IMG/VR virus record: IMGVR_UViG_3300020442_000005 | Location: 62,001 to 126,000 of that record | Length of the DNA: 64,000 bases | DNA from: a virus | Reading direction: 5' to 3' (one strand) | Shown: piece after piece, positions 14,112 to 64,000 of the stretch | Numbering within the stretch: position 1 is the first letter of the stretch | How the letters are laid out: every line of letters begins with the position of its first letter | Notes under the pieces: generated by a model | The model's database searches: none | What the model was told of the DNA's origin: nothing | What the model saw: the letters and a program-made list of their open reading frames with translations, nothing else | Translations under genes and position numbers: made by a program

Positions 14112-14648
14112 ATGACCGCAAAAAATTATTCAACTAATAAATCAAGCACGACAAGCTTTAAGTCAGCCGGGCAATTAATTGCCGATTACAACGATAGAGT
14201 TGAAAATAAGATTGTTGTCGAGCGAAAACCTATAGGAATTAAAACTCCTCTCCAGTTAAAAAAGGGCAATCTATTTGATATGACCTATAATCTATCAGAT
14301 CAAATAACTGATAATCTTCGCAATTTAATTATGACAAACAAAGGCGAGAGATTAGGAAACCCGAATTTTGGCACTGACTTAAGAAAAACGCAGTACAACA
14401 CTGCAAACAAAGAGGATGCCGAAATTGAAATGATGGCAAAAATTCAAAACGCTGTTAAAATATTTTTGCCATTTGTTGAATTGGTGGATTTCACAACTAC
14501 TGAACTTCCACCATCGATGGTTACATCTACAGCAGATCTGCATTCTGGATTTGCCGGTGGAGCATTATCGGTAAAAATAACTTATACAGTGCCGCAAATA
14601 TCAAACGTTGAAAAAGGCTTGACAGTATTATTGCCTATGGGAGTTTAA
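14112..14648 (+). CDS. gp25: Baseplate wedge protein, gp25-like
   Basis: A 178-residue member of the GPW/gp25 baseplate family. The diagnostic segment is residues about 63-95: helix ITDNLRNLIMTNKGERLG, then NPNFGTDLRK, which in T4 gp25 forms the core that joins wedge to sheath. A 40-residue basic, serine-rich N-terminal extension precedes it. Members start sheath assembly from the baseplate. GAGGAG lies 7 bases ahead of the ATG. The next gene (gp6-like) begins 2 bases after the stop, the usual gp25-gp6 pairing. Confidence 0.9.
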   Translation: MTAKNYSTNKSSTTSFKSAGQLIADYNDRVENKIVVERKPIGIKTPLQLKKGNLFDMTYNLSDQITDNLRNLIMTNKGERLGNPNFGTDLRKTQYNTANKEDAEIEMMAKIQNAVKIFLPFVELVDFTTTELPPSMVTSTADLHSGFAGGALSVKITYTVPQISNVEKGLTVLLPMGV

Positions 14649-53678: not shown

Positions 53679-53684
53679 ACCGGC

Positions 53685-53694
53685 TAATAATTAT
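53685..53694 (+). promoter_or_regulatory. Candidate late promoter element ahead of the small-gene cluster
   Basis: TAATAATTAT lies 22 bases before the ATG at 53717 and shares the ATAATTAT core with the structural promoters. This would place the following small genes, including those with capsid-targeting-like starts, under late control, which fits packaging into the head. Confidence 0.5.
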
Positions 53695-53716
53695 GAGTGT
53701 AACTAGGAGTCAATGA

Positions 53717-53938
53717 ATGCATGCAGAAATACTAGCGCTAGCCTCTAGAATTAAAGGTGTTACCCTTGACGAGTTAAAAGATAATTTCGGCTTTAAAGCA
53801 TTCGATGTTATCGATGAGCTGGCTGAGGAAAACGAAGTCTTTTTAGACGATCGTACCGGCATTGTTTATGCAGCCGGAACAAACCCGTCACCTTGCCTAA
53901 ATGAAATAATCATATCATACATGGAAGATAATAAATGA
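53717..53938 (+). CDS. Small winged-helix-like protein, unknown function
   Basis: A 73-residue protein. The helical pattern (EILALASRIKGVTLDELKDNFGF, then VIDELAEENEVFLDD and a short strand YAAGTN) resembles a small winged helix-turn-helix DNA-binding domain with a wing at GTGIVY-like residues, but this is fold-level reasoning only. AGGAG lies 7 bases before the start. It overlaps the next gene by 4 bases (ATGA). Confidence 0.55.
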   Translation: MHAEILALASRIKGVTLDELKDNFGFKAFDVIDELAEENEVFLDDRTGIVYAAGTNPSPCLNEIIISYMEDNK

Positions 53939-54378
53939 GACTTACAGAATCACGGCTTAGAAAAACAATCCGAAAAATTATTCAAGAGGCATTCTATAAT
54001 AAATATGGTCAGCCTATAGGCAGCCGGTACCGCGGCGGTCCACTACATCAAAATCTTGGTGCACCATACAGACCGAAAGAAAAATATAATCAAATGATGC
54101 GATTGCTTAGAGGTTATCAGCGTAAATGCAACCATGCTAGCTTGGGAAATGAGATGAACATGAACGGAGTTTGGATAAAGTTAGCTATGGGTCTTTTATC
54201 AGATATAAGATGCTATGATGGCACACAGGGTCCTGTACAGTGCAAATTAAAGTTTCAAGGTAAACAATTAATATTCGACGAAGTAGAGGATCTCAAATCA
54301 TTCTTGAACGAACCAGAACTTTTGCAAATGCAAAAAGAAGAGACAGAAGAATTGAATGCCAAGTATGGAGAGTACTAA
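53935..54378 (+). CDS. Candidate internal head protein with capsid-targeting-like N-terminus (1)
   Basis: A 147-residue basic protein of unknown function. The first 19 residues (start MRLTESRLRKTIRKI) end at I16-Q17-E18-A19, which fits the T4 gp21 protease rule of cleavage after (I/L)-x-E before a small residue. The two following genes start the same way. After the putative cut the chain is Arg/Lys/Tyr-rich in its first half and acidic at its C-terminus. By analogy with the T4 internal proteins it may be packaged in the prohead, trimmed and ejected with DNA. That is inference. The two genes behind it start within 2 bases of the preceding stop. Confidence 0.6.
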   Translation: MRLTESRLRKTIRKIIQEAFYNKYGQPIGSRYRGGPLHQNLGAPYRPKEKYNQMMRLLRGYQRKCNHASLGNEMNMNGVWIKLAMGLLSDIRCYDGTQGPVQCKLKFQGKQLIFDEVEDLKSFLNEPELLQMQKEETEELNAKYGEY

Positions 54379-54379
54379 G

Positions 54380-54763
54380 ATGAAAATTACAAGAAGACAA
54401 TTAAGAGGATTGATTGTAGAGGCGGTATATGCATCTTCACCTCAGGCCGCGTACGATAGACTTAAGTCTTTAGAGCAAGGCAACGGCAGATATGATATTA
54501 GTATATACCAAAGGTTCGGTCTAGAAAGATACGCCGATATCATTCGTGCAGATCTTGAACGAAGGCCTCAAAGCCATATTCCTGCAAATCAGATCGAAGA
54601 GGTAGCTGAAGAGTATGAAAAGCTTTCAAAACAATTTAAAAGAGTTAACATAACAACTCAAACAGATAGACGTTACGGCCGAAAAAGATATGCTATGGAA
54701 CATATACCATCGGGCGAACAATTTAGTTTAGGCACAGACCGAAAAGGAAGCTTAGGGAGCTAG
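54380..54763 (+). CDS. Candidate internal head protein with capsid-targeting-like N-terminus (2)
   Basis: A 127-residue basic, helical protein. I start it at 54380, where TGGAG lies 9 bases upstream, because this gives an N-terminus matching the genes on either side; an ATG at 54356 lies inside the previous gene. Start MKITRRQLRGLIVEA ends with I12-V13-E14-A15, a prohead-protease-type site. The rest (QAAYDRLKSLEQGN, QIEEVAEEYEKLSKQFKRV) is helical and resembles no family I know. Confidence 0.6.
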   Translation: MKITRRQLRGLIVEAVYASSPQAAYDRLKSLEQGNGRYDISIYQRFGLERYADIIRADLERRPQSHIPANQIEEVAEEYEKLSKQFKRVNITTQTDRRYGRKRYAMEHIPSGEQFSLGTDRKGSLGS

Positions 54764-54764
54764 C

Positions 54765-55043
54765 ATGAAAATTACAAGAACACAGCTTAGAAGAATTATT
54801 AAAGAAGCCGGCTACGAGGGTAGGTATTTTCATCAGCACGGTACGGGTACCTTTTATTCACCAGATGAACAGTTCCGAGAGGACGTACATTTTATCTTAG
54901 ATAACTCTCCATCGTATAACTCGTACTGGGAAAAAGTGTACAAACTAATCGAAGCATTAGATGAAGACGAAAGATACATGGCTGAAAAGATTGCAGACGA
55001 TATGTGGGAAAGACACACAAACAGAAATTATAGATACTACTGA
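54765..55043 (+). CDS. Candidate internal head protein with capsid-targeting-like N-terminus (3)
   Basis: A 92-residue protein with start MKITRTQLRRIIKEA; I12-K13-E14-A15 again fits the prohead protease site. The predicted mature part is rich in Tyr, His, Asp and Glu. Because most of its first 14 residues match the preceding protein while the remainder does not, this looks like an exchanged leader joined to unrelated bodies, as in T4-type internal proteins. Two small hairpins follow its stop. Confidence 0.6.
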   Translation: MKITRTQLRRIIKEAGYEGRYFHQHGTGTFYSPDEQFREDVHFILDNSPSYNSYWEKVYKLIEALDEDERYMAEKIADDMWERHTNRNYRYY

Positions 55044-55127: not shown

Positions 55128-55149
55128 AAAATACTGTTTGGAGTTTATA

Positions 55150-58100
55150 ATGAGAATAGCACATATTGCCGACGTCCACTGGCGCGGTTATCAACGTCAT
55201 GTTGAGTACCGTACATCTTTTTCTGATATGTTTAGACAATTGCGGGAACTAAAGGTCGACGCCATATGCGTTGCTGGTGACATCGTTCATTCAAAAACAC
55301 AGGGTATATCACCTGAGTTAATCGATAATTTAAATTGGTGGTTTACAGAACTTTCACGTATTGCTCCAACTCATGTTATTCTTGGAAATCACGATGGTTT
55401 GATTTTAAACAAGGATCGCCAGGATGCGATTAGTCCAATACTTAATGCGTTGAATCTTCAAAACGTTTATCTATACAAAAAATCCGGCGTATATAACGAC
55501 CCAAACGATGATAGATTTAACTGGTGTGCTTTTAGTCCGTTTGATGAAGAAGGATACGCAGAGGTCAAGCCACAAAGAGGAAAAATAAATATTGCTATGT
55601 ATCACGGCGCTGTGTGGGGTTCTCATACTGATATGGACTTTATGCTAGACGGTGACTGCAAGATGGATTTCTTCCGCGGTTTTGACTATGTTATGCTGGG
55701 AGATATACATAAGCGTCAGCAGCTAGATAAAGATGGCCGTATATGGTATCCTGGATCTCCCATACAACAGAACTATGGTGAATCTGGAGACAAAGGCTTT
55801 CTATTATGGGACATAGAATCGGACTCTGAGTTTGATGTAGAATTTTTTCCTATTAGACATGACAATCCATTTGTCACTGTTGATTGGCAAGGTAACATTC
55901 AGTCGACCATATCTAAATGTATGAAAGAATGGCCGGCCGGAGCACGATTTAGAATTAGGTCGACCGTTGAACTAGATCCTAAAACTCAAAGAAAGCTGGC
56001 AACAGTCCTTCGTCGTGAACATGGCGCTGATGAAGTAGTATATCAGTTAAAGCTAAAGCAGTCCTCTATATCAAAAGAGACGTCTGAAAAGATAAAGATT
56101 CAAGATCTTTCAGATCCGCTAACCCATAAAAAACTATTGAGAGAGTGGTCAGACGATGACGGACTTACAGATCCAGAATTTTGGAGTGAGGTTGATCGTA
56201 TTGTAGATGAAACCGTGCCAAAATTAAAAGTATCAGCTGACCATAAAGGTAATCTATGGTCTATTAAAGAAATGAACTTTGATAACACTTTTGGATACGG
56301 AAAAGACAACGTTATTAATTTTTCTAAGTTATCTGGAATTGTTGGTTTATTTGGACGTAATCGCTGTGGTAAATCTTCTATTCCTGGTACTATCATGTAC
56401 GCTTTATACAATTCTAACGATAGAGGAATCGCATCAATTCAGCACGTCATTAACACTAGGCGATCAAACTGTTCAGCCGACGTCACTTTTTCTGTTAACG
56501 GCAGACTATACAGGCTGGAAAGACATAGCGTTAGATATCCTGCTAGAGGCGGTAAGAACGAAGGCGCAATGTCTTATCTGTCTCTCTATGAGGTTGATGA
56601 TGAAGGCAGAATTATCAAAGACCTTTCAGGCGAACAAAGAAGAGATACTGAAAAATCTCTGAGAAATTTGATTGGTACTCCAGAAGACTTTATGATGACG
56701 TCATTTGCCGCACAGGGCAACATGAACTCTTTTATTAAGCAAGGGCCTACAGAAAGAAAAAAGACGATCTCGAACTTTATGGGCTTGGATGTATATGATC
56801 AATTTCAAAGTATCGTAAAAGAAGAATCAGCTGGCGTTAAAAACATGCTTAAAAGGTTATCTGAAAAAGATTGGGTTGCTTTGATTAGATCAAATAGAAC
56901 AGATATAACCAACTTTAAAGAGCAAAGAACTCATTTGGCTGAAAAGATCAACGATCTAAATGATCGCTATCGGGAGTTTTCTGAAAAAGCGCAAGAGGAG
57001 TCTGGTGGCGACTTTGTCGACCCTTCTCAGTTAGCTAGAAAAAGAAGATTACTTGAAAACAAAAAATCAGGTTTGTCTGATATAAGATATCATATTAGCA
57101 CCCTACAAGAAAGACTATCAACCGAGCAGGAAAACCTCGTTGTTCTAGAAACATTTAGAGACAATTTTCCATTAGAATCATACAATAGAAGGCTAGAGTT
57201 GCTCGAGGGTTTGAGAAGAAACCTGCAGAAAATGCAAATGAATCTTAAGCAAGAAAGAACTGTTATGGCAAATCAAAAAAAATCAGTATCACTTCTTAAA
57301 GAGGTACCATGTGGTGATTCGTTTCCTACATGTAAGTTCATTGCCGAAAGTCACAAAAACAAAGCTTTATTAAAAGAACAGAAAGAGTTAGTAAGTAATT
57401 TAAAATCCGAATTAGACGAAGCCAAAATTAAACTTGAACAGATTGAAGAAGAAGGTTTACGACAAAAAATAGAAGAATATAACGACAATCTCAAAAAAAT
57501 TCAAAATACTAAAATGTCAATTGTGGTTTCTAAATCGAAACTAGAAAAAGAGAACAGAGATTTAGCAGATGCATTGCAGGATATCCAAAGACTGTCTGAT
57601 GAGATTACAGACATGGAGTTAAGATCCGATGAAGAAAAATCTGTCGTGTTAGCTAATTTAAAATCTAAGTTAAAAGCGATTGATTCTGAAGTAAAAGAGT
57701 ATAAGCTAGATATGTTTTCACTAGCTCAAAAAATAGGAGAGTGTCAGGCAAATATTAAACAACTAGAAAAGGAATCGGTAGAGTTCGATAGATTACAAGT
57801 TGAATGGAAAGTATACGATTATTTGCTCAAAGCCACGTCTTGGCGAGGTATACCTGCGTATATCATGAAAAAACAATTACCGATTATTAATAGTGAAATG
57901 TCAAAGATACTTCAAGATACTTCTGGTTTCACAGTGGAGCTAGATATTACAGATAAGAAAACTGATATCTTTATTAACTACGGTGATAGTCGGCGACCTA
58001 TAGAGTGCGCAAGTGGCATGGAGAAGATGGTTTCTTCTATGGCTTTACGAGTTGCTTTAGGAAACGTATCAAATCTAAACAAGTCTGATATGTTTATTGT

Positions 58101-58284
58101 AGATGAGGGTTTTGGCGCACTAGACCATCAGAATGTAGAAGCTGTAACTTCATTAATGAAAAGACTTAAGGCTTATTACAGACTAATCATGGTTATTTCG
58201 CATGTTGACGTTGTAAAAGATTCAGTTGATAATATTATCGATATAACAAAAGTTGGCATGGAATCAAAAGTGGAATATGTCTGA
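55150..58284 (+). CDS. Fused Mre11-Rad50 (SbcD-SbcC) recombination nuclease, gp47-gp46 in one chain
   Basis: This 1044-residue protein joins the two subunits of the SbcCD/Mre11-Rad50 complex in one chain. Residues about 1-300 are the metallophosphoesterase: D8-x-H10, GD44, GNHD (N80-D82), H152 in MYHG and GDIH187. Residues about 380-1044 are the Rad50-type ATPase: Walker A GRNRCGKS (G402-S409), long coiled coils (about 600-720 and 730-880), a Cys pair C721/C728 between them at the hook position, signature SGMEK (S955) and Walker B IVDEGFGALD (D985). T4 uses two genes (47 and 46). I start it at ATG 55150 (TTGGAG 6 bases upstream) and not at the TTG overlapping that site. It would resect DNA ends for recombination-dependent replication. 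Confidence 0.9.
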   Translation: MRIAHIADVHWRGYQRHVEYRTSFSDMFRQLRELKVDAICVAGDIVHSKTQGISPELIDNLNWWFTELSRIAPTHVILGNHDGLILNKDRQDAISPILNALNLQNVYLYKKSGVYNDPNDDRFNWCAFSPFDEEGYAEVKPQRGKINIAMYHGAVWGSHTDMDFMLDGDCKMDFFRGFDYVMLGDIHKRQQLDKDGRIWYPGSPIQQNYGESGDKGFLLWDIESDSEFDVEFFPIRHDNPFVTVDWQGNIQSTISKCMKEWPAGARFRIRSTVELDPKTQRKLATVLRREHGADEVVYQLKLKQSSISKETSEKIKIQDLSDPLTHKKLLREWSDDDGLTDPEFWSEVDRIVDETVPKLKVSADHKGNLWSIKEMNFDNTFGYGKDNVINFSKLSGIVGLFGRNRCGKSSIPGTIMYALYNSNDRGIASIQHVINTRRSNCSADVTFSVNGRLYRLERHSVRYPARGGKNEGAMSYLSLYEVDDEGRIIKDLSGEQRRDTEKSLRNLIGTPEDFMMTSFAAQGNMNSFIKQGPTERKKTISNFMGLDVYDQFQSIVKEESAGVKNMLKRLSEKDWVALIRSNRTDITNFKEQRTHLAEKINDLNDRYREFSEKAQEESGGDFVDPSQLARKRRLLENKKSGLSDIRYHISTLQERLSTEQENLVVLETFRDNFPLESYNRRLELLEGLRRNLQKMQMNLKQERTVMANQKKSVSLLKEVPCGDSFPTCKFIAESHKNKALLKEQKELVSNLKSELDEAKIKLEQIEEEGLRQKIEEYNDNLKKIQNTKMSIVVSKSKLEKENRDLADALQDIQRLSDEITDMELRSDEEKSVVLANLKSKLKAIDSEVKEYKLDMFSLAQKIGECQANIKQLEKESVEFDRLQVEWKVYDYLLKATSWRGIPAYIMKKQLPIINSEMSKILQDTSGFTVELDITDKKTDIFINYGDSRRPIECASGMEKMVSSMALRVALGNVSNLNKSDMFIVDEGFGALDHQNVEAVTSLMKRLKAYYRLIMVISHVDVVKDSVDNIIDITKVGMESKVEYV

Positions 58285-60544: not shown

Positions 60545-62572
60545 ATGGCTGAAAACAACAATGAAAATCTGTTTAGACGGCTAACTAAACTATTCAGATC
60601 CGGACCTACTGTAAAAAGAAGAGTTCGCTCATATGATCCAAATTCTCAGACTGCCTCAACCGCGGTTGATTTATTTAAAAAGGCTCATTCAGATGTATAT
60701 AATTCAACATTAAGTGCTTATGGTACTTTTGATAGAATGGCAAGATATTCTGATTTTTCAGAAATGGAAGCTACACCAGAGATTGCCAGTGCGCTTGATA
60801 TATACGCAGAAGAAACAGTTTCAGAAGACGCTGAAGGTAAATGCCTACACATCAGATCTGATAATAGAAAGGTGAGGGAATTACTAAGTACACTGTTTTA
60901 TGATACCCTAAACATTGATTTCAATCTTGTCATGTGGGTTAGAAATCTTTGTAAGTATGGTGATTTCTTTTTATTCAACGACGTACATCCAGAGTATGGA
61001 GTGATAAACGCTTATCCGATTCCTATTACAGAGATGGAGCGCGAGGAAAATTACGATCCATCAGATCCTGCCGCGGTAAGATTTCGTTGGGTTACACAGG
61101 GCAATCAAGTTTTAGAAAACTGGCAGATTTCTCACTTTCGTTTATTGGGTAACGACGCTTTTCTTCCATATGGTTCTTCGGTATTAGAGTCTGCGCGTCG
61201 TATTTGGCGCCAGCTTATTCTTATTGAAGATGCAATGCTAGTGTATCGCGTTATTCGATCCCCGGAAAGACGTGTGTTTTACATTGATGTAGGTAACGTT
61301 CCACCAGAGGATGTACCCAATTATGTTGAGCAAGCCAAAACGGCATTAAAGAGAAGCCCGGTTATTGATAAAAGCAATGGCCAGATGGACCTTAGATATA
61401 ATCCAATGTCTGTCGACGAAGATTATTTTATTCCAGTTAGAGGTGGAGATTCTGGAACAAAAATAGATTCTTTAGCGGGAGGTTCGAACACATCTGCTAT
61501 CGAAGACGTTGAATATATACAGAAAAAACTATTTGCCGCTCTAAAAATACCAAAAGCTTATTTGGGATATGATGAAGATGTCGGAGCCAAAGCAACGCTA
61601 GCACAAGAAGATATCAGGTTTTCTAGAACAATCCAAAGAATTCAAAAGACAATTATTGCAGAACTTAATAAAATTGCAATGATCCATCTTTACTCTCATG
61701 GATTTGAGGGTGAAGACTTACTAGATTTTAGTTTATCTCTATCAAATCCAAGTTCCCTAGCTCAACAACAAAAACTTTCTTTAATAGAGCAAAAATTTTC
61801 AATTGCTGGTTCTGCACCTGAGGGAATGGTCTCAAGAACATGGATACGGCAAAATGTTTTTGGATTCACACGTGACGAAATAGATCGAATAGAAGAACAA
61901 AAGTTGGCTGAAAAAATACTGGACATGCAGATTGAGGCCGCCAAACCGCCTGGAGGCGAAGAGGAAGCTGAAGGTGGTGGAGACGAAGGCGGCGGTGATG
62001 AAGGTGGAGGTCTGTTTGCCGCAGACTATCCGTCAAACCAGAATTTGCTTGACGGCATGCCGGTAGAATATAGTGATACCATGGCTGAGTATGACGAAGT
62101 GTCTGAGGAAGACCTAGATGAAATAGATCTTGAAAACATATCAGCAGAATATATCAAGCCATCACAGGTATCAAGTCGACAGAAAAACGTATTTGGAGAC
62201 GATCTAATAAAGAAAAAAGATCGATCTGTGAAGAATGGATCACTTGAGACGCATATGCCGGATTTCTTAAAAATGACATCAACCGGTCGGGCAGGTAGAA
62301 AACAGGATACTTTAAATAATCCATATGATACTGATTTCCTAAAAAATCCTTTTGGTAATCCGTTTACAGAGGGCAAAAAAAGTCTTGCAGATATAATTTT
62401 AGGTGAACAAGAAGAACCTGATAATAATTATAATGGTTACAGACCAAGTTTAGATTATGCTATGCAAAGAACGTTGGAGTCAATGAATAAAAAGTTTGGA
62501 AAGTTAAAGATACTAAAGGAAGATAAAGAATTAGAACTAGGCTTCGAATTGGAGGAAGACGATAATGACTAG
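60545..62572 (+). CDS. gp20: Portal protein, gp20-like
   Basis: A 675-residue portal of the T4 gp20 type, forming the DNA entry channel at the head vertex. Typical segments include FSEMEATPEIASALDIYAEE near residues 55-90, WQISHFRLLG, and the stretch SPERRVFYIDVGNVPPEDV and YIQKKLFAALKIPKAYLG, which are hallmarks of gp20. T4 gp20 is 524 residues; the extra ~150 residues are a C-terminal extension that opens with a very acidic Gly/Glu run at residues about 477-498 and may be flexible. AGAGGAA precedes the ATG. It overlaps the next gene by 8 bases. Confidence 0.95.
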   Translation: MAENNNENLFRRLTKLFRSGPTVKRRVRSYDPNSQTASTAVDLFKKAHSDVYNSTLSAYGTFDRMARYSDFSEMEATPEIASALDIYAEETVSEDAEGKCLHIRSDNRKVRELLSTLFYDTLNIDFNLVMWVRNLCKYGDFFLFNDVHPEYGVINAYPIPITEMEREENYDPSDPAAVRFRWVTQGNQVLENWQISHFRLLGNDAFLPYGSSVLESARRIWRQLILIEDAMLVYRVIRSPERRVFYIDVGNVPPEDVPNYVEQAKTALKRSPVIDKSNGQMDLRYNPMSVDEDYFIPVRGGDSGTKIDSLAGGSNTSAIEDVEYIQKKLFAALKIPKAYLGYDEDVGAKATLAQEDIRFSRTIQRIQKTIIAELNKIAMIHLYSHGFEGEDLLDFSLSLSNPSSLAQQQKLSLIEQKFSIAGSAPEGMVSRTWIRQNVFGFTRDEIDRIEEQKLAEKILDMQIEAAKPPGGEEEAEGGGDEGGGDEGGGLFAADYPSNQNLLDGMPVEYSDTMAEYDEVSEEDLDEIDLENISAEYIKPSQVSSRQKNVFGDDLIKKKDRSVKNGSLETHMPDFLKMTSTGRAGRKQDTLNNPYDTDFLKNPFGNPFTEGKKSLADIILGEQEEPDNNYNGYRPSLDYAMQRTLESMNKKFGKLKILKEDKELELGFELEEDDND

Positions 62573-63407
62573 AAAATCCCACAACAAAAAAAGAAATGTC
62601 GGGATTATTTACGAGCAATTGATTTTGACTGTCTCGAAAGGAATTGTAAAAAATAATCCAAAGCTTGTTGAAAGCGCGAAAAGTATTATTAAAAAACATT
62701 TTGTACCTGGCACCGAGCTATACAAAGAGCACAAACTCTTTCAAGCGCTTGTCAAACCACATATTGATAATGATTCGTTGGCAACATCAATTTTAGGCGA
62801 GGCAAAAAAAGCAGCAAGAGCCCACGATTCGAATCGATTAGAACGTGAAAAATCACGACTCATAAGAGACATAAATCTAACTTTTGGAAAAGGCTTCTAT
62901 GGTACACGTATCAAGGAATACAAGGAGTTTGCTACAGTACAGACGTTAATGAACGATTGGCGCCAAAATAGCACTAATATTCAGCGTATTGTTGAATATG
63001 AGCAAAAGGTACACAACATACTTACATCTGAAAAAACAGTAAAAACATTGTCTGAGCATAAATCACCTGATGCTGATAATCTTGTCGTAAAAATAATGAC
63101 AGAAAAATTTAATCAGAAATACGGTTCTAAACTTACTGATCAGCAAAGCATGCTTATAAAAAATTATGTAATGTCAGATAAGAAAATTAATTTTGAATCG
63201 ACACTCAATTCTATACGAGAAAACTGTATTAGAGAGTTAAATCGTTATTCAATCAACTGTGAATCATCAATAGTAAAAAGCAAAATAGATCCTGTCATTT
63301 TAGAACTAAAACAACTGGATACAGCAAATCTAAATGACGAAAACTTTAGCAAATTTATGACTTTGTGTCATTTGCAAAAAGAGCTTAAGGAGAGAACAAA
63401 TGGATAA
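62565..63407 (+). CDS. Probable prohead core or assembly protein between portal and protease
   Basis: A 280-residue, highly charged helical protein, strongly basic at its N-terminus. In T4 this position holds genes 67 and 68, encoding prohead core proteins, so a scaffold-type role is likely. I see no sequence similarity to them. It overlaps the portal gene by 8 bases and the protease gene by 8 bases, indicating translational coupling and related function. Confidence 0.6.
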   Translation: MTRKSHNKKRNVGIIYEQLILTVSKGIVKNNPKLVESAKSIIKKHFVPGTELYKEHKLFQALVKPHIDNDSLATSILGEAKKAARAHDSNRLEREKSRLIRDINLTFGKGFYGTRIKEYKEFATVQTLMNDWRQNSTNIQRIVEYEQKVHNILTSEKTVKTLSEHKSPDADNLVVKIMTEKFNQKYGSKLTDQQSMLIKNYVMSDKKINFESTLNSIRENCIRELNRYSINCESSIVKSKIDPVILELKQLDTANLNDENFSKFMTLCHLQKELKERTNG

Positions 63408-64000
63408 TGCCCTTAGATTATTACAGGAATGGAATGCTTTTTCATACGATAGAGAACAGATACTTGAGGAAAGAGCAACCAATGGCGGCCGGTATGTCAT
63501 GAGAGGCGTGCTGCAAAAATCCAACACGTTAAACCAAAACGGAAGAATATATCCGAAAGAAATATTAGAACGCGAAGTCCGAAATTATCAAAAGTTTATT
63601 GCAGAACGTAGAGCACTTGGTGAATTAGATCATCCAGAATCTTCAGTAGTTGAACTTAAAAACGCATCACACCTTGTAACTGAGGCTTACATGGAAGGGG
63701 ATATATGCTATGGAGTGGTTGAAATCCTTGATACACCGAGTGGAAAAATACTTAAATCACTTGTTGACGCAGGCGTTACTCTTGGTATTAGTTCTCGTGG
63801 TGTTGGGTCTACTCGACGTGAAGGTGACCACCAAGTGGTTCAAGATGATTTTCAGCTTATTTGTTGGGATTTTGTTAGTGAGCCATCTACTCCTGGGGCA
63901 TTCATGATGAAAGAAGGCCGTGAAATAAAAGAATCGGATTTAAAAAAATATTTTAATAAATCTGACAGAGTGGATAGAATACTTAACGATATTTTAGATT
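63400..64000 (+). CDS. gp21: Prohead protease, gp21-like (3' end outside window)
   Basis: A T4 gp21-type prohead maturation protease, open to the window end (200 residues visible). It shows GRIYP near residue 50, H78 in LDHPES, and S131/S132 in LGISSRGVGS, the His and Ser positions of the family's catalytic site. The family cleaves after (I/L)-x-E in head proteins, so its substrates may include the leaders seen at 53935-55043. The ATG at 63400 overlaps the previous stop by 8 bases, with AAGGAG upstream. The rest of the head genes presumably follow beyond the window. Confidence 0.95.
   Translation, partial: MDNALRLLQEWNAFSYDREQILEERATNGGRYVMRGVLQKSNTLNQNGRIYPKEILEREVRNYQKFIAERRALGELDHPESSVVELKNASHLVTEAYMEGDICYGVVEILDTPSGKILKSLVDAGVTLGISSRGVGSTRREGDHQVVQDDFQLICWDFVSEPSTPGAFMMKEGREIKESDLKKYFNKSDRVDRILNDILD

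Follow-up and report, generated by a model that had tools for sequence, protein, structure and literature searches.

The window analysed here, 64,000 bases corresponding to bases 62001-126000 of a 273,025-base IMG/VR virus record, carries three tandem small genes whose products begin with a similar short peptide and then diverge completely (Table 1). The first-pass annotation had described this arrangement, with the shared segment ending at Glu18, Glu14 and Glu14, each followed by Ala, and the ORF translations confirm both the arrangement and the three end points. The pattern is far larger than was noted, comprising about 47 genes in the record; some 44 of them were overlooked because they are located outside the window. 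The three bodies have no mutual similarity and no relatives in any collection searched, including Pfam and PHROG, and the 73-aa ORF that opens the cluster likewise had no match in Pfam or PHROG. A blastn search of the cluster against cultured phages gave no match; neither did tblastn with a 28-residue leader query, which is not evidence of absence, since a low-complexity filter may explain the result. For the second leader gene, an alternative ATG lies at 54356, and the start at 54380 is preferred on account of the GGAG upstream and the leader match. Coiled-coil PDB matches obtained for this gene were weak, look compositional, and were set aside.

Table 1. Features of the leader-gene cluster and the head-gene block (window coordinates)
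Feature	Position	Strand	Basis and remarks
Candidate late-promoter element GCTAATAATTATGAG, containing ATAATTAT	53683..53697	+	Motif; ~30 bases upstream of the cluster's first gene
Small ORF, 73 aa, without leader	53717..53938	+	ORF call; opens the cluster
Leader gene 1, 147 aa	53935..54378	+	ORF and leader profile; orphan body, no relatives found
Leader peptide 1, MRLTESRLRKTIRKIIQE	53935..53988	+	Proposed cut after Glu18, then Ala
Leader gene 2, 127 aa from the ATG at 54380	54380..54763	+	ORF and leader profile; no body relatives found
Leader peptide 2, MKITRRQLRGLIVE, class 1	54380..54421	+	Proposed cut after Glu14, then Ala
Leader gene 3, 92 aa	54765..55043	+	ORF and leader profile; body model helical, low-confidence
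Leader peptide 3, MKITRTQLRRIIKE, class 1	54765..54806	+	Proposed cut after Glu14, then Ala
Portal protein (gp20-like)	60545..62572	+	phrog_213, E 4.5e-72
Conserved head-block protein between portal and protease	62565..63407	+	Similar-looking ORFs at the equivalent position in other leader phages
Prohead core protease, gp21-like, peptidase family S77	63400..64000, running 11 bases past the window	+	Profile searches

A candidate late promoter had been proposed near position 53685, and the motif found there supports it as a candidate. The element contains ATAATTA, of which 34 of the 72 occurrences fall in the 11.5% of the genome outside plus-strand genes, a strong intergenic enrichment. ATAATTA lies ~20-35 bases upstream of 6 of the 15 window genes examined (those at 14112, 26672, 34102, 36841, 47405 and 53717), and it also precedes the scaffold and neck genes by ~30 bases. 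The T4 late promoter TATAAATA was rejected as a mark of the leader genes; ATAATTA marks them instead, and we regard it as a candidate late-promoter element unlike that of T4.

Across the record, the leader occurs in two classes, on a total of about 47 of roughly 337 predicted genes of at least 60 aa. Class 1, MKITKRQLRRIIKE followed by A or S, is found on about 29 genes. It was scored with a position-specific profile built solely from other phages, the threshold being the best score among 30,200 shuffled ORFs; the class-1 genes, all three window genes included, outscore every one of these. The reversed DNA leader pattern had zero matches. Class-1 genes are located at 9.4-11.0, 132.4-134.4, 170.1-171.8, 174.3, 178.0-179.0, 211.4-212.8 and 237.4-240.0 kb of the record, and at a few additional single places. 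Class 2, MKNLRQYIRKILLE followed by A or S (consensus MKxLRQYIRxILLE), is found on about 18 genes: 17 by pattern, compared with 0.02 expected per shuffled genome, and a near-miss at record position 261077. Most belong to one tandem run of small genes at 252.4-263.7 kb (252390-263662 of the record), and others lie at 199.5-200.4 kb. Leader peptide 1 of the window looks intermediate between the two classes. In this phage, the leaders are 14-27 residues long and mostly basic, and they form a short N-terminal segment common to proteins with unrelated bodies. Copies internal to proteins are at background level with few exceptions, and the tag is therefore N-terminal. In the leader protein encoded at 177983-178279 of the record, another leader-like stretch, RLTVSQLRRLIREA, begins ~38 residues into the sequence, and the leader may be doubled here.

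The end of the leader was analysed in 251 non-redundant proteins from other records, in which most of residues 1-14 were imposed by the search pattern. Beyond about residue 22, conservation drops to background. A second (I/L/V/M)-x-E site, which the search did not impose, is present at Glu22 in 92 of the 251 proteins, 16.6-fold over the rate in bodies, and such sites are enriched 7.4-fold at Glu21. In leaders that stop at Glu14, the next residue, likewise free of the search pattern, is A, S or T in 50 of 61 proteins. The long form also occurs in this genome, for example as MKISKRQLRRIIKEEYSRLARHGLIKE followed by A. The segment ends in (L/I)-x-E followed by a small residue. Counting against a cleavage reading, a second site is not obvious in 29 of the 251 proteins, all of them with E14-E15.

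When bodies were compared with the first 14 residues masked, related bodies were found behind short, long, class-1 and class-2 leaders, with the joint at or near the Glu. In one pair, IISE precedes ALELDIEEGDVILTGRFKNKR in a class-1 protein and ILLE precedes SISLDVDVGDVILTGRFKNKR in a class-2 protein; in another, SNFFDNMRAK follows either IIREELEE or IIQEELASVLNE. One body is found in a short-leader form, IIREAAMSFDQADDHYVGG, and a long-leader form, IIREEKARILEETKSFDRSDAHYVGG, the long form being the gene directly after the capsid gene of this phage. The body GDVILTGRFKNKRTIVKK follows class-1 leaders in the regions L131, L040 and L098; in L135 and L435 it stands behind class-2 leaders, at equal distance from the Glu. 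A further body domain is present in nine proteins of this genome, eight of class 2 and one of class 1, and also in two class-2 proteins of L135. Since common bodies stand behind both leaders, the two classes are exchangeable. A GNAT-like fold considered for the body common to both classes was dropped; the model was poor (pLDDT 56), and fold searches returned nothing significant.

The end point of the leader can be compared with that of the major capsid protein. The gp21-like protease previously read at 63400 was confirmed by matches to phrog_207 (E 1.7e-49) and PF03420 (E 8.2e-27; 94 bits against a cut-off of 27), and its location in a portal-protease-scaffold-capsid block agrees with membership in family S77. 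The ORFs of other leader phages that resemble the one between portal and protease have HNKKRN near their start. The major capsid protein of this phage belongs to the Gp23 family (PF07068, E 7.9e-76). In T4, a propeptide of 65 residues is removed from gp23, and gp21 cleaves on the C-terminal side of L/I-x-E (PMC9026906). We surveyed 20 regions around the protease genes of leader-bearing records and found capsid proteins in 18 of them (17 IMG/VR records and one metagenome-assembled genome [MAG] contig); two of these have tandem capsid genes, giving 20 proteins. In all 20, the propeptide ends in (V/I/L)-L-(R/K)-E followed by A, S, T or Q; the 484-kb phage LR756508 has the same pattern, and the propeptide of this phage ends in AAQVLRE, then ANTLGG. 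Judged from sequence, the leader end and the capsid propeptide end are the same kind of site, and, by analogy with T4, the capsid proteins of leader phages are probably cut there. The earlier proposal of a shared leader that ends at a gp21-type site in front of swapped bodies is supported by the profile, the drop in conservation and the likeness to the capsid site. The tandem capsid genes, in two giant phages (L403 and L411), form pairs of nearly equal length.

Other leader-bearing genes lie close to the head genes. Five class-1 genes (132445-134386 of the record) are directly downstream of the capsid gene, and six leader variants lie around the capsid gene of LR756508. In most of the leader phages examined, the small protein encoded between protease and scaffold itself starts in a leader-like manner, for example with MAKVTKKVLKEIVKQCLVEILVE followed by G or MAKVSRSTLKTLVKECLFEILLE followed by A, which suggests that the leader may copy an element of core assembly. 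Within the head-gene block, at 128337-128555 of the record, a small basic protein resembles ribosomal protein S21 (PF01165, E 0.006, below the cut-off); in a group of bS21 phages already in the literature, bS21 is encoded in the terminase-capsid-protease region (PMC9723584).

Some 300 further leader proteins were found, nearly all from uncultured phages. A degenerate DNA leader pattern matched at least 118 stretches in IMG/VR, but in 257 Gb of bacterial and archaeal genomes it matched just 9, which belong to four MAG assemblies. Two species-representative MAG contigs, NHDW01000006.1 (Methylococcaceae TMED69; L135, L139 and L140) and PBIO01000025.1 (Halobacteriovorax SP2999; L136 and L138), look like giant-phage DNA and have 14-21 leader matches. 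Of the four assemblies with the DNA pattern, the two tested both encode S77, one on the leader contig and the other on a different contig; the remaining two are short contigs. Class 2 is rare, occurring on four IMG/VR contigs, two of which also have class 1. The leader is absent from T4, S-PM2, the Flavobacterium phage immuto, Microcystis phage Mel-JY01, Pelagibacter phage Mosig and Rhodothermus phage RM378.

The first-pass annotation had held that its reading would fail if homologues were common in phages lacking a gp21-type protease, and this is not the case: all 13 leader-bearing records of 100 kb or longer encode S77, each with a score of at least 84 bits. For comparison, nine random records in this size range were drawn with arbitrary 14- to 16-mers; S77 was above the Pfam cut-off in five and above 80 bits in two (Fisher p = 0.017 at the Pfam cut-off and 0.0002 at 80 bits, a threshold set post hoc), and the leader pattern was found in none of 32 random control records. 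S77 is present in many phages without the leader. The co-occurrence partly reflects shared ancestry, since all leader phages compared have related capsid genes.

Most bodies are orphans, and scans against Pfam, PHROG and PADLOC gave scattered single matches at most. Among 135 leader proteins, single members match the YkuD L,D-transpeptidase (E 2.6e-20), AAA_33 (kinase-like), FliG_C, HNH and others; one has a 2H phosphoesterase-like domain just below the cut-off, and one class-2 protein matches PAP2. These matches point to enzymes more than to structural parts. PADLOC, a library of defence proteins, had no match in the same 135, which leaves room for counter-defence. The protein at record position 254715 has a YYHGT motif and was considered as a possible ADP-ribosyltransferase, an assignment dropped for want of profile or PDB support. 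The body domain common to eight class-2 proteins of this genome is a repeated one.

The closest known parallel is the capsid targeting sequence (CTS) of the T4 internal proteins IPI-IPIII and Alt, which is cut by gp21. It too is a short N-terminal propeptide on unrelated bodies that ends in (L/I)-x-E and a small residue, and a gp21-type S77 protease and a gp23-type capsid protein are encoded in both cases. The first 10 residues of the CTS are enough to package a protein, proteins fused to it reach the host, and Asp at the cut position abolishes processing while leaving targeting intact (PMC9026906). Beyond the site, however, the mostly basic leader of this phage is unlike MKTYQEFIAE. A T4-type CTS pattern has 3 matches in T4 and none in seven leader phages tested, and a relaxed leader pattern has no match in T4. 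Since homology could not be detected, the leader is not placed in the sequence family of the T4 CTS. Of the CTS-like leader proposed earlier, the functional likeness remains probable, by site and by S77, but sequence homology does not hold, and the leader is best read as a functional analogue. What is remarkable in comparison with the T4 internal proteins is the scale, about 47 leader genes against the three CTS-pattern matches, and the presence of two interchangeable leader classes, in an uncultured far-T4 lineage distinct from that of T4. In T4, CTS-tagged bodies serve counter-defence: IPI acts against gmrSD, and IPIII is needed on ECOR17 (PMC9391042). The bodies described here are unrelated to these, and no such function is recognisable in them. 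The phiKZ-like giant phages SPN3US, phiKZ and 201phi2-1, which eject head proteins, also process many head proteins after Glu with a gp21-related protease (PMC10052503, PMC9026906); in the available portions of these reports, most SPN3US propeptides are long (111-254 residues) and are cleaved after A-x-E, and there is no mention of a short leader shared by dozens of small proteins. A literature search covering few subscription journals found no paper describing a leader system of this kind.

At the level of sequence, our analysis establishes a common N-terminal leader, unrelated bodies, a capsid-like end point, swapping, association with the S77 block and near-confinement to phage DNA. We consider it likely that these reflect a capsid-targeting leader trimmed by S77, with the body kept in the head and most likely ejected. 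The N-terminal 14-27 residues would act as the T4 CTS does, bringing the protein into the prohead core during head assembly, probably by binding a scaffold or core protein. The S77 protease would cut after (I/L/V/M)-x-E, and the released body would stay in the head with the DNA and most likely enter the next host, where it may have a role in early takeover. Since about 47 genes have tags that end at the expected protease site, the phage probably packs and delivers dozens of proteins, and since two interchangeable classes are spread over these genes, the leader would be a general tag for loading many small cargo proteins. On balance, and with less confidence than in the mechanism itself, we favour a general virion loading signal, with a logic like that of a bacterial secretion signal, in which the two interchangeable classes mark some 20-50 cargo proteins per genome; each particle would then deliver a large arsenal of effectors, rapidly exchanged, ahead of any phage gene expression.

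It is conceivable that the leader is a head-assembly tag only, carried by scaffold or core proteins that are cut, leave the head and are not delivered. T4 core proteins are indeed cut by gp21 and mostly leave the head (PMC9026906), and the conserved core-like proteins of the head block with leader-like N termini, together with the leader cluster after the capsid gene, would fit such a role. We nevertheless consider it unlikely, since about 47 mostly unrelated and unconserved bodies would hardly be structural, nor would the enzyme domains found among them (L,D-transpeptidase, kinase-like AAA_33, 2H phosphoesterase-like, HNH, PAP2). It is less probable still that the peptide has nothing to do with the capsid and instead directs docking or localisation within the infected cell, to a phage compartment, membrane, DNA or RNA polymerase, the Glu site being part of a helix. 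Such a role would not predict that A, S or T follows the terminal Glu, that long leaders end at a different (I/L)-x-E, or that the end matches the capsid processing site, even though the peptide is short, mostly basic and probably helical. The short class-1 form has a raised hydrophobic moment (p = 0.03), but amphipathicity is unremarkable in the other forms, and membrane targeting by an amphipathic helix was rejected because this test was unconvincing.

The tandem clusters could also be taken to indicate a gene family that duplicated recently and diverges fast, or a mobile 5' cassette, with the leader as a slowly evolving remnant that targets nothing or as an element acting at the DNA or RNA level, and third codon positions in the leader are fairly similar too (0.60, compared with 0.72 and 0.77 at first and second positions). 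The leader codons vary synonymously, however, while the bodies retain no residual similarity (0.27-0.29 identity), and upstream DNA has just the ribosome-binding site in common. Third positions vary more and the upstream regions share only this site; therefore, it is the peptide that is conserved, not a DNA element. The leader is also retained across distant phages, and two unlike classes precede the same bodies, all of which makes such an origin very improbable.

If the preferred reading of a trimmed capsid-targeting leader is correct, 14-27 residues mark the proteins that a giant phage carries into its host, which are otherwise indistinguishable among hundreds of orphans, and hundreds of nameless phage proteins become a defined list of candidate delivered effectors. 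The T4 internal-protein strategy could then be expanded about tenfold, and a new packaging tag would be at hand for protein delivery with phage heads. Two unlike leaders before the same body also constitute a natural experiment on recognition by the prohead core. Elsewhere in the window, 55138-58284 is a single 1048-aa ORF, which, read from its sequence, looks like a gp47-like nuclease fused to a gp46-like SMC ATPase; translation more likely begins at the ATG at 55150 than at the TTG.
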